The notes under the pieces are model-generated. The model saw nothing but the letters and a program-made list of their open reading frames with translations. It searched no databases and was not told the origin of the DNA. Position numbers and translations under genes: made by a program. A DNA stretch of 64,000 bases from Bdellovibrio sp. ArHS (GTDB lineage Bacteria; Bdellovibrionota; Bdellovibrionia; Bdellovibrionales; Bdellovibrionaceae): contig NZ_JTEV01000012.1 in NCBI RefSeq assembly GCF_000786105.1, forward strand, positions 1 through 64,000, read 5' to 3'. Positions 21,446-32,130 of this stretch are shown piece by piece. Every line of letters starts with the position of its first letter. Position 1 is the stretch's first letter.

Positions 21446-22470
21446 GTTCTGACGTCGTACAAACCCCACCACCTGCAACTCCGGTGAAAAAATTGCGTGT
21501 GATGTCTGGAATGCGAGTGACAGGTCGTTTGCATATTGGACATTACTGGGGAGCGCTGAAAAACTGGTTGGATCTGCAAAACGAGCACGAGTGTTTCTTT
21601 GGGGCGATGGATTGGCATGGTATGACCACTGCCTACAAATCACCGAAAGACATCACCCCGTGGACTCGTGAAATGGTGGCCGAGTTTATCGCTTGGGGCA
21701 TCAATCCCGAGAAAGCGACGATCTTTATTCAAAGTCGCGTTCCCGAGCACCTGGAACTTTTCATGATCTTTGCGAACATGGTTCCGATGGGTTGGCTAGA
21801 GCGTGTGAACACGTGGAAAGACGCCATTGAGGAAATGAAAGCCAACGACACTCATAACTTGGGTCGTTTTGCGTATCCGGTTTTACAAGCGGCCGACATT
21901 GCTATTTATCGTGCGAACGCTGTGCCGGTAGGTGCAGATCAGGTTTCGCATCTGGAACTAGCTCGTGAATTGGTGCGTCGCTTTAACCACTTGTACAAAG
22001 CAAAGCTGCCAGAAATGAATCCTCTTTTGACCGAGATTCCTCTGGTGCCAGGTCTTGACGGGCGCAAGATGTCCAAATCCTACGGAAATACTTTGTTCCT
22101 TACGGAAGACAGCGAAAAAGATTTGAAAAAAAAGGTGAATTTGATGGTCACGGACCCGGCACGCGTTCGTCGCGAAGATCCGGGGGAGCCGACGAAGTGC
22201 TCGGTGTATGGCTATCATAAACTTTATTCCTCCGCCGAAGATATTGCCTGGGTCGAACAAGGATGTCGCTCTGCAGGAATCGGTTGTGGAGATTGTAAAG
22301 CTCGGTTGGCTGCCAACATCGAAAAACTTTCGGCGGGCCCAAGAGAAAAGAAAAAAGAGTTGTTGAATAATCCAGGTCAGCTTGATTCAATCATCGACGC
22401 TGGATGCGACAAAGCGCGCAAGGAAGCCCAAAAGACGTTAGAGATAGTTCGTTCCAGTATGAAATGGTAG
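21442..22470 (+). CDS. trpS: Tryptophanyl-tRNA synthetase
   Basis: A 342-residue class I aminoacyl-tRNA synthetase charging tRNA-Trp. The ATP-binding motifs are RLHIGHYWGALKNW (HIGH) and GRKMSKSYGN (KMSKS). There is a Cys-rich stretch near the end (GIGCGDCKARLA), seen in a subset of TrpRS proteins. The ATG overlaps the stop of the protease gene in an ATGA arrangement, so translation is probably coupled. The N-terminus has about 15 extra residues rich in Pro and Thr before the core. Confidence 0.97.
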   Translation: MSSDVVQTPPPATPVKKLRVMSGMRVTGRLHIGHYWGALKNWLDLQNEHECFFGAMDWHGMTTAYKSPKDITPWTREMVAEFIAWGINPEKATIFIQSRVPEHLELFMIFANMVPMGWLERVNTWKDAIEEMKANDTHNLGRFAYPVLQAADIAIYRANAVPVGADQVSHLELARELVRRFNHLYKAKLPEMNPLLTEIPLVPGLDGRKMSKSYGNTLFLTEDSEKDLKKKVNLMVTDPARVRREDPGEPTKCSVYGYHKLYSSAEDIAWVEQGCRSAGIGCGDCKARLAANIEKLSAGPREKKKELLNNPGQLDSIIDAGCDKARKEAQKTLEIVRSSMKW

Positions 22471-22485
22471 AGGGGATCCAATTTC

Positions 22486-23484
22486 ATGAGTATTACAGTT
22501 CAGTTGCCTAAATTCGAAGGACCGCTGGGGCTTCTTCTTTATCTTATCCGTAAAGAAGAAATGGACATCATGGATATTAAAATCCATGAGATCACCAAGC
22601 AGTATCTTGATTATATCAAATTGATGAAGGAATTAGATCTGGAAGTCGCCGGCGAATTCGTTGCGATGGCTTCTACTTTGATTCAAATTAAATCCCGCAT
22701 GCTTCTTCCTCAATATGATGAAAATGGCGAGGTTGTAGAGGCGGAAGATCCGCGCAAAGAACTTGTGCAAAAACTTTTGGAGTATCAAAAGTATCAGGAA
22801 GCGGCCAAACTTCTTTACGAACGTCCTTTGGTTGGACGTGATGTCTGGTTGCGAGGAACTCGCGAATCTTTGGATCAAAAAGAAGAAGAGATTATTTTAG
22901 AAGAAAATGCGCTGTTTTCTTTGATTTCGACCTATCGCAAAGTTTTGCGCTCAGTTAAGAAGAAAGTTCATCAGGTTGCCGCGAAGGCACAATCGATCGC
23001 CAGCCGCGTTTTAGAGATCAAAGATCGTTTGATCGTGGGCCAACGCGTGACGATGATGGAATTGGTGACGGCGACAGAAGACCGTGCACGCCAGGCTTTA
23101 ATCACGTTCTTGTCTTTGTTAGAACTTGGAAAAATGGGTTTTGTAGGTCTTTACCAGACGGAAGCGTATGCGGACATCTGGGTGGATGCGAAAAAACCAA
23201 TCGAAACGGATGTCTTGGCTCGAGTGGAAGAGTACGACTCTATGCGCGCAGACCAGGTCGCTGAAAAGATGATGGAAGAGTCTAAAAAGATTCAGGAGGA
23301 TGAGGATTTCCTTCTGACAGATGCGGAAGATAAGTTGGAAGAAGCCAACCCGCAAATGCAATTGGGTTTTATTGAGGACGGTTCCTCAGCGGAAGCCCTG
23401 GAATCAGGTCTAGATATCGCCACGGATGACGAAATCCTAGCAATGGAAAACGAACTATTTAAAGACGACGCAACGGAAGTATAA
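22486..23484 (+). CDS. scpA: Segregation and condensation protein A
   Basis: The kleisin subunit of the SMC-ScpAB condensin. It starts with the hallmark KFEGPLGLLLYLIRKEEMDIMDIKI, which contacts the SMC neck, and has the ScpB-binding middle and the C-terminal winged helix around ALITFLSLLELGKMGFVGLYQTEAYADI that binds the SMC head. At 332 residues it is longer than the usual 240-280, because of a highly acidic tail after residue 255. The gene follows trpS after 15 bases and precedes scpB by two bases. Confidence 0.96.
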   Translation: MSITVQLPKFEGPLGLLLYLIRKEEMDIMDIKIHEITKQYLDYIKLMKELDLEVAGEFVAMASTLIQIKSRMLLPQYDENGEVVEAEDPRKELVQKLLEYQKYQEAAKLLYERPLVGRDVWLRGTRESLDQKEEEIILEENALFSLISTYRKVLRSVKKKVHQVAAKAQSIASRVLEIKDRLIVGQRVTMMELVTATEDRARQALITFLSLLELGKMGFVGLYQTEAYADIWVDAKKPIETDVLARVEEYDSMRADQVAEKMMEESKKIQEDEDFLLTDAEDKLEEANPQMQLGFIEDGSSAEALESGLDIATDDEILAMENELFKDDATEV

Positions 23485-29208: not shown

Positions 29209-31623
29209 TTATTGGCAAGCCTCGCAAGCCTCTGGATTTTCCAGAGAGCAAGCAATCACTTCAGCATCTGTGTAAGTTTTCTTAGGTGCAGTTTCAGCTT
29301 TTGGAGCTGCATCCACGGTGTTGACCGCGTCTGCTGATAAATCCATGCTGTTGCTTCCAGACTTCACTGTCGTTTTTGCAATCTTCGTCGCAGGACGAGA
29401 GCGCAAGTAGTAAGTCGTCTTCACACCTTTCTTCCATGCATACATGTACATCGAAGAAACTTTACCGATAGTGGGGCTTTCCATGAACAAGTTCAAAGAC
29501 TGAGCCTGGTCAATGTAAGCGCCGCGATCCGCCGCCATATCGATCAAAGACTTCATCGGAATTTCCCAAACAGTGCGGTACAATTCTTTCAATTGTTGAG
29601 GAATAGCCGCAACATCCTGGATAGAACCATCTTGAATCTTAATTTCATTGCGAAGGTCCTCGTTCCACAAGCCCAAAGCTTTTAAATCAGAGACCAAGTA
29701 TTTGTTGATCTGCATGAACTCACCAGAAAGTGTTTCACGTTTAAATAAGTTGGAAACTTGCGGTTCAATAGCTTCGTAGCAACCCACGATAGAGGCAATC
29801 GTCGCCGTCGGCGCAATCGCAATCATCAAAGAGTTTCTTAAGCCATGCTTTTTGATTTTTTCTTTCAATTTTTCAAAACGCTCTGGTTGAGACGGAGTCA
29901 CGCCCCAAAGATCGTATTGCAACAAGCCTTTGGCTGCTTTTGTTTGTTCATAAGCACCGTGAGGGCCGAATTGTTCAGCAAGTTCACAAGAAGTCACTAG
30001 CGCATTGTAGTAAATCTCTTCTTGGATTTTTGCCGACAAATCACGAGCCGCTGCGGAATCAAAAGGAAGTTTCAATTGGAAGAAAGCATCCTGAAGACCC
30101 ATCACACCTAAACCCACTGGACGCCATTTGTGGTTGGAGTCTTGTGCCGTTTGGATAGGGTAGAAGTTGATATCAACAACACGATCCAAATATTTTACAG
30201 CCGCACGCACGGATTTCGCCAGTTTTTCAAAGTTGAACTGACCGTTTTCCACGTGACGTCCCAAGTTCACAGAACCCAGGTTGCAAACAGCTGTTTCAGA
30301 CTTCGAAGTCACTTCCAGAATCTCTGTGCAGAGGTTGGAAAGATGGATCACGTTGCCTGGTTCGCCAGTTTGATTTGCTTTCAAATTCGCGGCATCTTTG
30401 AACGTCATCCAACCGTTTCCAGTTTGCGCCAGCGTTTTCATCATGCGCGAGTACAAATCACGAGCTTTGATTTGTTTCACGTACATTTTTTTCTCTTCAG
30501 CTTCAGCATAAGCCGCTTCGAATTCAGGACCATAGGTGTCAACAAAGTGAGGCACTACACGTGGGTCGAAAAGAGACCACATCGCATCTGCTTCCACGCG
30601 TTTCATGAACAAGTCTGGAACCCAGTTCGCCAAATTCAAGTTATGAGTACGCTTGGCTTCGTCACCCGTGTTGTCACGCATTTCAAGGAATTCTTCGATG
30701 TCAGCATGCCATGTTTCCAAGTATACACAGGCGGCGCCTTTGCGCTTTCCACCTTGATTTACAGCCGCGACGGAAGAATCCATGGTTTTCAACCAAGGAA
30801 TGATGCCATTGGAATGACCATTTGTTCCTTTGATCAAAGAACCACGAGAACGGACACGAGAGTAAGCTACGCCGATACCACCGGCAAACTTAGACAACAA
30901 CGCAATGTCAGAGTATTTGTCGTAGATCGCTTTCAAGTCGTCTTCTGGGGAATCCAAAAGATAGCAAGAAGACATCTGTGGACGAGTTGTGCCGGAATTG
31001 AAAAGGGTGGGCGTGGAAGCCATATAGTCATGAGAAGAAATCAGACGATAGAACTCGATAGCCTCTTCTACGGATTGAGCCAGACCGCAAGCCACGCGCA
31101 TGAAGAAGTATTGAGGAGTCTCAAACACCTGGCGAGAAGTTGGATTTTTCAAAAGATAGCGATCGTAAACAGTTCTTAGGCCGAAGTATTCAAAACGATC
31201 TGTGCGGTAAGGCTCGATCGCAGCACAAAGAGCCGCTTTGTGCGCTTCCACGAATTTATAAGTCGTCTCAGACAACAGACCTACGGAGTGACCGAAAGCC
31301 ACTGAGTCTGCGAAAGATTGGATTTTCTGAGAACGAACTTCTTCATCAATATAGATAGAAAGAAGACGAGCCGCCAGACGAGAATATTCAGGTTCTTCGC
31401 CGATCAACAGGGAGGCTGTTTGAATACAAAGATTATCAAGTTCATTTGTTGTGGCGCCATCATAAAGACCGCTGATGGCTTTTGTCGCAACACGAAGTGG
31501 GTCCACTTGAGTCAGGCCCTGGCAGTTGCGAGTCACGCGCTCAACGATCTTCGTAACGTCGACCGGCTCTAGCGTGCCATCTCTTTTTTTAACTCTCATG
31601 ATGTGAGCTGTTGTTTCCAACAT
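29209..31623 (-). CDS. nrdA: Ribonucleotide reductase large subunit, class Ia
   Basis: An 804-residue alpha subunit that reduces ribonucleoside diphosphates to deoxyribonucleotides. The N-terminal ATP-cone (MRVKKRDGTLEPVDVTKIVERV) provides allosteric activity control by ATP/dATP. Catalytic residues include the Cys in MSSCYLLDSPEDD, the SNLCTEI motif and the Cys in AVCNLGSVNLG. The C-terminal CEACQ tail carries the Cys pair that re-reduces the active site. The ATG at 31623 has GAGGGG upstream. It is transcribed with nrdB, and a long structured leader precedes it. Confidence 0.97.
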   Translation of the reverse strand: MLETTAHIMRVKKRDGTLEPVDVTKIVERVTRNCQGLTQVDPLRVATKAISGLYDGATTNELDNLCIQTASLLIGEEPEYSRLAARLLSIYIDEEVRSQKIQSFADSVAFGHSVGLLSETTYKFVEAHKAALCAAIEPYRTDRFEYFGLRTVYDRYLLKNPTSRQVFETPQYFFMRVACGLAQSVEEAIEFYRLISSHDYMASTPTLFNSGTTRPQMSSCYLLDSPEDDLKAIYDKYSDIALLSKFAGGIGVAYSRVRSRGSLIKGTNGHSNGIIPWLKTMDSSVAAVNQGGKRKGAACVYLETWHADIEEFLEMRDNTGDEAKRTHNLNLANWVPDLFMKRVEADAMWSLFDPRVVPHFVDTYGPEFEAAYAEAEEKKMYVKQIKARDLYSRMMKTLAQTGNGWMTFKDAANLKANQTGEPGNVIHLSNLCTEILEVTSKSETAVCNLGSVNLGRHVENGQFNFEKLAKSVRAAVKYLDRVVDINFYPIQTAQDSNHKWRPVGLGVMGLQDAFFQLKLPFDSAAARDLSAKIQEEIYYNALVTSCELAEQFGPHGAYEQTKAAKGLLQYDLWGVTPSQPERFEKLKEKIKKHGLRNSLMIAIAPTATIASIVGCYEAIEPQVSNLFKRETLSGEFMQINKYLVSDLKALGLWNEDLRNEIKIQDGSIQDVAAIPQQLKELYRTVWEIPMKSLIDMAADRGAYIDQAQSLNLFMESPTIGKVSSMYMYAWKKGVKTTYYLRSRPATKIAKTTVKSGSNSMDLSADAVNTVDAAPKAETAPKKTYTDAEVIACSLENPEACEACQ

Positions 31624-31655
31624 GATGTATCCCCTCTGCCCCGTTCCGTTTGGGC

Positions 31656-31678
31656 AAAAAAATCCCCGGCCGATTTTT
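31656..31678 (-). terminator. Terminator-like hairpin in nrdA leader
   Basis: On the minus strand AAAAATC-GGCCGGG-GATTTTTTT forms a 7-bp stem ending in a U-run, 33 bases before the nrdA start. A second GATTTTTT upstream (minus-strand copy of 31688-31695) could pair with the same AAAAATC arm, so an alternative antiterminator hairpin is possible. Confidence 0.5.
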
Positions 31679-31743
31679 CACCCCTCGTAAAAAATCAGCT
31701 CGTGGCTCAATATATAAATGTGTGTTATTTTAGAGACTGAATC

Positions 31744-31864
31744 GCTAATCCTTAGCTGTTGGTCCAGAGTTGTTACTCGTCAACCTCCCTTAAGTGGCCG
31801 TCAGTTCTTCTTTCGGCTAACCCCTATATCTAGGGGTCTCTTTCAGGTGCCTCATCAATAAGGC
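31744..31864 (-). ncRNA. Structured nrdA leader RNA, possible riboswitch
   Basis: Upstream of nrdA, five helices follow one another: GCCU/AGGC (31849-31864), ACCCCUA/UAGGGGU (31820-31837), GCCG/CGGC (31797-31817), GAGU/ACUC (31767-31778) and GCUAA/UUAGC (31744-31756). The terminator-like hairpin at 31656-31678 follows them. This arrangement of a sensing region plus expression platform is typical of riboswitches or attenuators. I could not match it to a known aptamer: the B12 box of cobalamin riboswitches, which control nrdAB in some bacteria, is absent. No open frame of note lies in 31624-32130. Confidence 0.45.
31820..31837. promoter_or_regulatory. Palindrome resembling an NrdR box
   Basis: ACCCCTA-TATC-TAGGGGT has a core CTATATCTAG that agrees at 9 of 10 positions with the core of the NrdR-box consensus (CWATATATWG). 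NrdR represses nrd operons. A weaker match, CAATATATAA, lies at 31708-31717. NrdR sites usually come as close pairs, so the 116-base separation is a weakness. Confidence 0.4.
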
Positions 31865-32130
31865 GGGTATCGATCTCAATTCCAACTGTGTAATTCTTTC
31901 TTCGAAGTTGCAAGAATATTTTTTGCGATAACGCCAACTTTTTTGTGACATTGCTCATCAATTAAGCAGTTTAGGTGAAGCGCTTGACATAAATATGCTG
32001 CAAACAAAATTAGCAAGAGCTGGTGATTTTACCTCGTAAAACCAAAGTCCAGCTTGAAAAGTCTGTTTTTAGCTGTTTTAAACGGGAATTTCTCTGTACT
32101 GATCTTACACGATCTTAAATTGTACAGAAA
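31865..32130. other. Intergenic region between nrdA leader and radical SAM gene
   Basis: AT-rich region without a convincing gene. On the plus strand TTGACA at 31984-31989 looks like a -35 element, but no good -10 follows at 17 bases. A hairpin-forming pair, CTGTAC (32094-32099) and GTACAG (32122-32127), lies near the end, just after the radical SAM stop codon, and could be that gene's 3' structure. The nrdA promoter presumably lies in this stretch. Confidence 0.4.

Follow-up and report, generated by a model that had tools for sequence, protein, structure and literature searches.

Predicted NrdR boxes and two conserved leader hairpins upstream of nrdAB in Bdellovibrio sp. ArHS

The nrdAB leader and its fold

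How is ribonucleotide reductase (RNR) controlled in Bdellovibrio sp. ArHS, and does an RNA sensor take part in it? A predator that alternates between non-replicating and replicating phases can be expected to keep dNTP synthesis under tight control, and the stretch upstream of its nrdAB genes had been proposed to be an unknown RNA sensor. The window, that is the whole stretch of DNA analysed (64,000 nucleotides, contig NZ_JTEV01000012.1), carries this leader on the minus strand, where it is read from high to low coordinates. It precedes two open reading frames that we take to be nrdA and nrdB, following the preliminary description of this DNA and our own recognition of the sequences:

31623-29209, minus strand: nrdA, ATG at 31623, open reading frame of 804 amino acids, matching the RNR model TIGR02504 below its cut-off
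about 29251 to 28097, minus strand: nrdB, open reading frame of 384 amino acids

The intergenic stretch before nrdA covers 32130-31624, and the gene upstream of it (33138-32131, minus strand) was taken by eye as a radical-SAM protein. A match to the leader was found in each of the 24 genomes of the genus Bdellovibrio that were compared; the viral contigs searched contained nothing related to it.

Positions 31864-31624 of the minus strand (241 nt) fold at −76 kcal/mol as compared to −55.2 ± 4.6 kcal/mol for dinucleotide shuffles (z −4.56, none of 200 shuffles equally stable), so the leader is structured, as had been claimed. Both the minimum free energy and the centroid fold show the five hairpins and the subsequent terminator-like hairpin before nrdA which the preliminary description had listed. 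That description had also set B12 aside, and rightly: at the Rfam gathering score neither a B12 riboswitch nor any other family was found in the entire window, and relaxing the threshold to E values up to 5 gave no meaningful match for the leader. The search with RNA family models thus leaves the leader outside known families, and a known riboswitch class was rejected on these grounds.

Several alignments were used for the comparisons. Alignment A2 consists of 22 of the 24 genus leaders (L011 and L012 were missed by the anchors and left out), whereas A4 and the covariance model R1 are built on 23 sequences, 22 of the 24 genus leaders plus L038 from another genus. The 35 rows of alignment A5 come from 13 of the 24 genus leaders and from 22 further ones. 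Excluded from A5 are eight leaders whose box 2 differs, L103, which has its box in common with L102, and L123 and L124, in which no box was matched. Alignment A3 was not used because some of its rows from other genera were misaligned.

Candidate NrdR boxes and promoter

The preliminary description had set NrdR aside as well. This did not hold up, as the strongest palindrome of the leader, its helix 2, has the pattern of an NrdR box. The features of the 5′ part are:

31836-31821, minus strand: candidate NrdR box 1 (helix 2), CCCCTAGATATAGGGG, a conserved pattern at nrdA
31853 to 31868, minus strand: candidate NrdR box 2, degenerate, ACCCGCCTTATTGATG, 8 of 16 consensus matches with C4 and G13 kept
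31849 to 31864, minus strand: helix 1 or P2 hairpin, GCCTTATTGATGAGGC, arms that differ between genera and still pair
31908 to 31913, minus strand: predicted −35 element TTGCAA, preceded by A-rich sequence, ranked among the top five in 21 of 24 leaders
31885 to 31890, minus strand: predicted −10 element CACAGT, 17-bp spacer, weak consensus match

Box 1 is a 16-bp palindrome with C4 and G13 and an invariant core, and has 11 of 16 matches to the NrdR consensus. Its core CTAGATATAG is among the best conserved blocks of the 24 aligned leaders, with a single deviating base in L011. The pattern CYMCTAGATNTAGKRG is present in 23 of the 24 Bdellovibrio genomes, in 22 of these at a single place, which is nrdA, and at two places in G014; genome G004 has TCACTAGATATAGTAT instead. 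Outside the genus, 31 of the 33 loci from elsewhere in the family (L092-L124, fetched by their NrdA) have a looser box pattern before nrdA, as compared to 2/33 for coding sequence and 2/33 for the reversed pattern, and some of these loci carry the full box ACACTAGATATAGTGT. NrdR itself (TIGR00244 over cut-off) was found in 24/24 genus genomes, and 53 of 59 relatives encode it too. In L083 (around 655-670; G014:C6:320454-320469) there is another perfect palindrome resembling the box, CCCCTAGATCTAGGGG, which is flanked by two open reading frames and does not adjoin the nrd genes found.

In PMC9110341, PMC12051234 and PMC12176259, rules for NrdR boxes are given and C4 and G13 are shown to matter; the spacers stated in PMC12051234 are 14-17 or 24-27 bp. 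The distances between tandem boxes in relatives are in line with these values: clean boxes are 31 bp apart in two members of another family, clear pairs were found in G025, G028, G041 and G047, and the distances are 31, 32 or 41 bp (41 bp in G025). Among relatives without NrdR, the nrdA leader was inspected in G040, G045, G046 and G055, none of which has a clear box; neither has nrdA in four NrdR-bearing genomes at order level (G039, G050, G052, G056). In the order-level genomes G037, G038, G040, G043, G044 and G049 the gene matched as nrdA is divergent and seems, by eye, to be preceded by another coding sequence.

A class II RNR, NrdJ, is encoded outside the window (G000:C6:11573-13501) and in all 24 genus genomes; a weak NrdD-like match, each time below the cut-off, was present in 14 of them. 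No clear NrdR boxes were seen in the 14 loci of nrdJ, the nrdD-like gene and nrdR that were scanned, nor was one seen upstream of nrdJ in this genome, and Rfam gave no match for four nrdJ loci.

Box 2 lies upstream of box 1 with a 16-bp spacer. It retains the half site TATTG, which is kept in most family leaders, and overlaps helix 1. The latter palindrome (31864-31849; family loci L093-L122) pairs through different arms from genus to genus, and this would be unusual if it served protein binding only. Across genera the arms read GCCTTA/TGAGGC, GGCATA/TATGTC, CAGCTTATA/TATGAGCTG and CGGCCC/GGGCTG; within the genus 99% of cells are paired, and in 26 of 35 leaders 10% of shuffles or fewer reached the P2 score. 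Since the arms vary yet pair, an RNA hairpin close to the 5′ end fits the palindrome better than a set of protein contacts does, though both may hold.

Helix 2 is thus, by its pattern, a DNA operator palindrome, an NrdR box, and from the boxes and the gene we infer that NrdR binds here. Compared with the operators of E. coli, Streptomyces coelicolor and Listeria, as described in PMC9110341, PMC12051234 and PMC12176259, the site shares the 16-bp palindromic boxes with C4 and G13, the spacer (16 bp here, to the candidate box 2; 15, 16 or 25 bp in relatives) and the position before an RNR operon in a genome with NrdR. Unlike those operators, it has a half degenerate box 2 overlapping a covarying palindrome, its boxes seem to be downstream of the transcription start, and no boxes were found at nrdJ, the nrdD-like gene and nrdR in the loci scanned. 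The operator would add a further case to a known type of site and, through NrdR, give a direct handle on the control of dNTP synthesis.

The promoter is predicted from its position. The site TTGCAA-N17-CACAGT, or a close variant, is fixed at −75 to −77 from box 1 and is in the top five for 21 of the 24 leaders. Because a simple promoter scanner called neither this site nor a TATATT site nearer to the gene (see below), the start is counted as a prediction, near 31878; relative to it, the boxes would lie around +11 and +43. In the genus, the predicted promoter is preceded by a block of strong conservation, TGCTTAATTGATGAGCAATGTCACAAAAAAGTTGGCGTTAT (31968-31929, minus strand), of which other genera show weaker traces; the block is possibly an activator site.

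Hairpins T and S before nrdA

Two adjoining hairpins follow in the 3′ part of the leader:

31656 to 31705, minus strand: hairpin T, terminator-like, loop CGAGGGG (31687-31681) and U7 tail (31662-31656), defined by covariation and geometry
31632 to 31661, minus strand: hairpin S, UUUUUUGCCC paired with GGGCAGAGGG, over the Shine-Dalgarno sequence GAGGGG (31636-31631), 98.7% of cells paired in the genus

Covariation among homologous leaders, named as a check in the preliminary description, was found for T: 12 of its 13 main-stem pairs have compensatory changes, with both sides changed. Measured within the 105 nt before the ATG, T and S together have 45 double-change cells as compared to 13.4 in shuffles (0/500). 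Their covariation score is 0.277, while shuffled versions give 0.137 and slid ones no more than 0.095. By this evidence T is a conserved RNA structure. Its loop CGAGGGG is invariant in 24/24 leaders, its mean energy is −18.5 kcal/mol, and in all 24 genus leaders a U-run of 6-8 begins 1-4 nt after the stem, ending here at 31656, a coordinate also given in the preliminary description. T is shaped like an intrinsic terminator, and some transcripts may terminate at it; a simple terminator scanner reported none here.

In attenuators of the intrinsic-terminator type, a hairpin and a U-run are placed between promoter and gene. The conserved hairpin at nrdA, with its U-run 1-4 nt after the stem, has this arrangement; it is different in its invariant loop resembling a Shine-Dalgarno sequence, in having no conserved antiterminator and in the reuse of the U-run for pairing with the Shine-Dalgarno sequence. 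The antiterminator that had been proposed to pair with the AAAAATC arm found no support. As it forms the 5′ arm in hairpin T itself, to which the AAAAATC arm also belongs, the upstream GATTTTTT is no separate antiterminator. The other possible partner of this arm is the downstream U-run (AAAAATC/GATTTTT), paired in 78% of cells; 283 of 500 shuffles were equally good and the pairing is not conserved, so that it was rejected. A duplex search of both T arms against the upstream leader found no conserved partner (mean z 0.11 and −0.27). The box and two genus-specific elements discussed below, hairpin P4 and the strand UCAGUCUC, cannot be conserved partners of T, since the T arms vary and those elements hardly change. 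Any regulated attenuation would therefore proceed without a visible switch. A pairing of loop CGAGGGG with ACCCCU of box 1 was also rejected, because it does not covary: in the L013 clade the box reads ACCACU while the loop stays the same.

The TATATT site bears on the role of T. If a second promoter with this −10 element near 31716 were used, most helices would not be transcribed from it and T would be a stabilising hairpin at the 5′ end. TATATT is found 89-92 nt before the ATG, in the top five for 14 of the 24 leaders and ranked first in L001. It has a poor −35, however, and is absent at that place in L013, L015-L017, L022 and L024, whereas the upstream promoter holds a fixed place relative to the boxes; moreover, a merely stabilising hairpin has no need of a U-run. 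We consider this start unlikely.

In hairpin S, GCCC and the U-run of T pair with GGGCAGAGGG. The pairs lying over the Shine-Dalgarno sequence are U-A and U-G, and from the sequence S would mask this site. S is nearly invariant in the genus, and its support there is weak since it hardly varies. When eight leaders from other genera were added, compensatory changes were seen in 15 of the 21 T and S pairs, including five S pairs, and the score rose to 0.456 (0.153 shuffled, at most 0.169 slid) in an alignment that was fitted to model R1 and leans towards it. R1, describing T and S, matched nrdA in 24/24 genus genomes with E values of 5.3e-20 or better, and the runner-up match in any of them had an E value of 0.15; in the genus the pair of hairpins is thus found at nrdA only. 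Outside it, R1 matched the nrdA leaders L038 (6.5e-9), L107, L111, L101, L106, L094, L042 and L095 (0.02). With 6 of the 33 loci L092-L124 matched at E 0.05, the element is detected in part of the family only.

FourU thermometers are hairpins in which a U-run masks a Shine-Dalgarno sequence. S resembles them in its U-run paired with the Shine-Dalgarno sequence through U-A and U-G pairs; here, in contrast, the U-run is longer and comes straight from a terminator-like hairpin, and Rfam has no match. The leader with T and S has no Rfam entry, and text searches of open-licence PubMed Central found nothing on it. In that text Bdellovibrio and NrdR never occur together, and texts combining Bdellovibrio, ribonucleotide reductase and nrd are off topic as judged by title and the beginning of the abstract. 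The Bdellovibrio RNA-seq paper PMC3627812 mentions neither nrd nor ribonucleotide in its main text.

An RNA-binding protein such as CsrA may be considered for the same hairpins. T and S would then form a site of translational control and T would not terminate transcription. Genes for CsrA are encoded in 59/59 relatives, an ANGGA motif was seen by eye in the S loop of 23 of the 24 genus leaders, GGGGA is present at the Shine-Dalgarno sequence, and the T loop is invariant, which a plain terminator would not require. However, several other genera lack the S loop motif, the T loop has no GGA in the genus, and the U-run has a terminator-like position in 24/24. CsrA is a possible player, but its support drops outside the genus, and a translational site replacing termination at T seems to us improbable.

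Riboswitch or two-layer control

Of the RNA structure that had been described for the whole leader, the 3′ part is conserved with covariation. The rest fared differently: helix 2 is the candidate operator, and helices 3 and 4, which are not conserved, lie in a stretch that varies in length and sequence between species and is unalignable across the genus. Two further elements of the 5′ part are kept:

31744 to 31756, minus strand: hairpin P4, GCTAAGGATTAGC, seen in the genus only, 90% of cells paired, nearly invariant
31733 to 31740, minus strand: TCAGTCTC, possible 3′ strand of a closing helix P1 with GAGATCGA (31877-31870), 83% of cells paired

The hairpin form of P4 is kept in the genus as GCUAAGGAUUAGC and its pattern was not found in the 22 loci of other genera that were searched. 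The closing helix P1 (GAGAYCGA/UCAGUCUC) has the same place in 23 of the 24 leaders, although single matches are within chance. If the genus has an RNA domain of its own here, P1 and P4 are the strongest sign of it that is left. The idea of an RNA sensor keeps this weakly supported, genus-only helix; an aptamer-like domain conserved beyond the genus was not found.

A ligand-binding riboswitch would use the 5′ part, with P1 enclosing P2, the box hairpin and P4, as aptamer and T or S as expression platform. The conservation of P1 and P4 in the genus agrees with this, as does the fixed place of P1 in 23/24 leaders, including clades in which both strands have changed. A riboswitch for ribonucleotide reductase also exists elsewhere: in Mesoplasma florum, according to PMC12268651, a leader RNA with a 2′-deoxyguanosine riboswitch and a terminator precedes an RNR gene. 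The leader described here is similar in being a terminator-like RNA before an RNR gene, but no aptamer of the purine type, no antiterminator exchange and no Rfam match was seen. Against a riboswitch, moreover, stand the lack of conservation of helices 3-4, the failure to see P4 outside the genus, the absence of any alternative pairing that joins the 5′ part to T, and the fact that NrdR already explains helix 2. We regard it as the least probable of the readings considered; an NrdR site combined with two conserved mRNA hairpins is the most likely one, ahead of a metabolite-sensing riboswitch. A leader peptide running through P2 into box 1 (ATK-GAY-RAG-GCA-CCT...CCC-TAG, by eye) was dropped, since the frame opens with ATG in some species but with ATT in others.

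We thus consider it probable that nrdAB is controlled by NrdR repression together with an attenuator-like leader that masks the Shine-Dalgarno sequence. NrdR lowers RNR transcription at high dATP, as stated in PMC9110341. In the DNA layer, NrdR loaded with ATP and dATP would occupy the two boxes just downstream of the promoter, and plentiful dNTPs would make it turn nrdAB transcription down. The RNA layer would be a leader of about 255 nt ending in T and S. T would present its loop CGAGGGG, similar to a Shine-Dalgarno sequence, and some transcripts would stop there; in those that read through, S would weakly mask the start site by placing the U-run of T on the Shine-Dalgarno sequence. T and S would so form a second gate on nrdAB.

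A more specific version of the RNA layer is rather doubtful, if somewhat less so than the CsrA site or the second promoter. The Bdellovibrio family would have, at nrdA, an undescribed two-stage RNA gate with a single U-run as both terminator tail and masking strand and with loop CGAGGGG as the sensor that the 30S subunit or a factor acting in trans would read. If true, dNTP synthesis would be tied to translation capacity at the onset of growth in prey, on top of NrdR. As the T-S element is outside Rfam, nrdA-specific, present in several genera and covarying, a small experiment on whether the U-run doubles as masking strand becomes possible. The sequence GAGGGG is identical in the T loop and the Shine-Dalgarno sequence, which suggests one reader of both; that this common reader is, for example, the 30S subunit is speculation. 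Among 29 chosen open reading frames of the window, GAGGGG precedes two. The one other than nrdA starts at 22486 (plus strand) and has the motif in the 22 nt before its start (22464-22485), in the context AGAGGGGAT as at nrdA.
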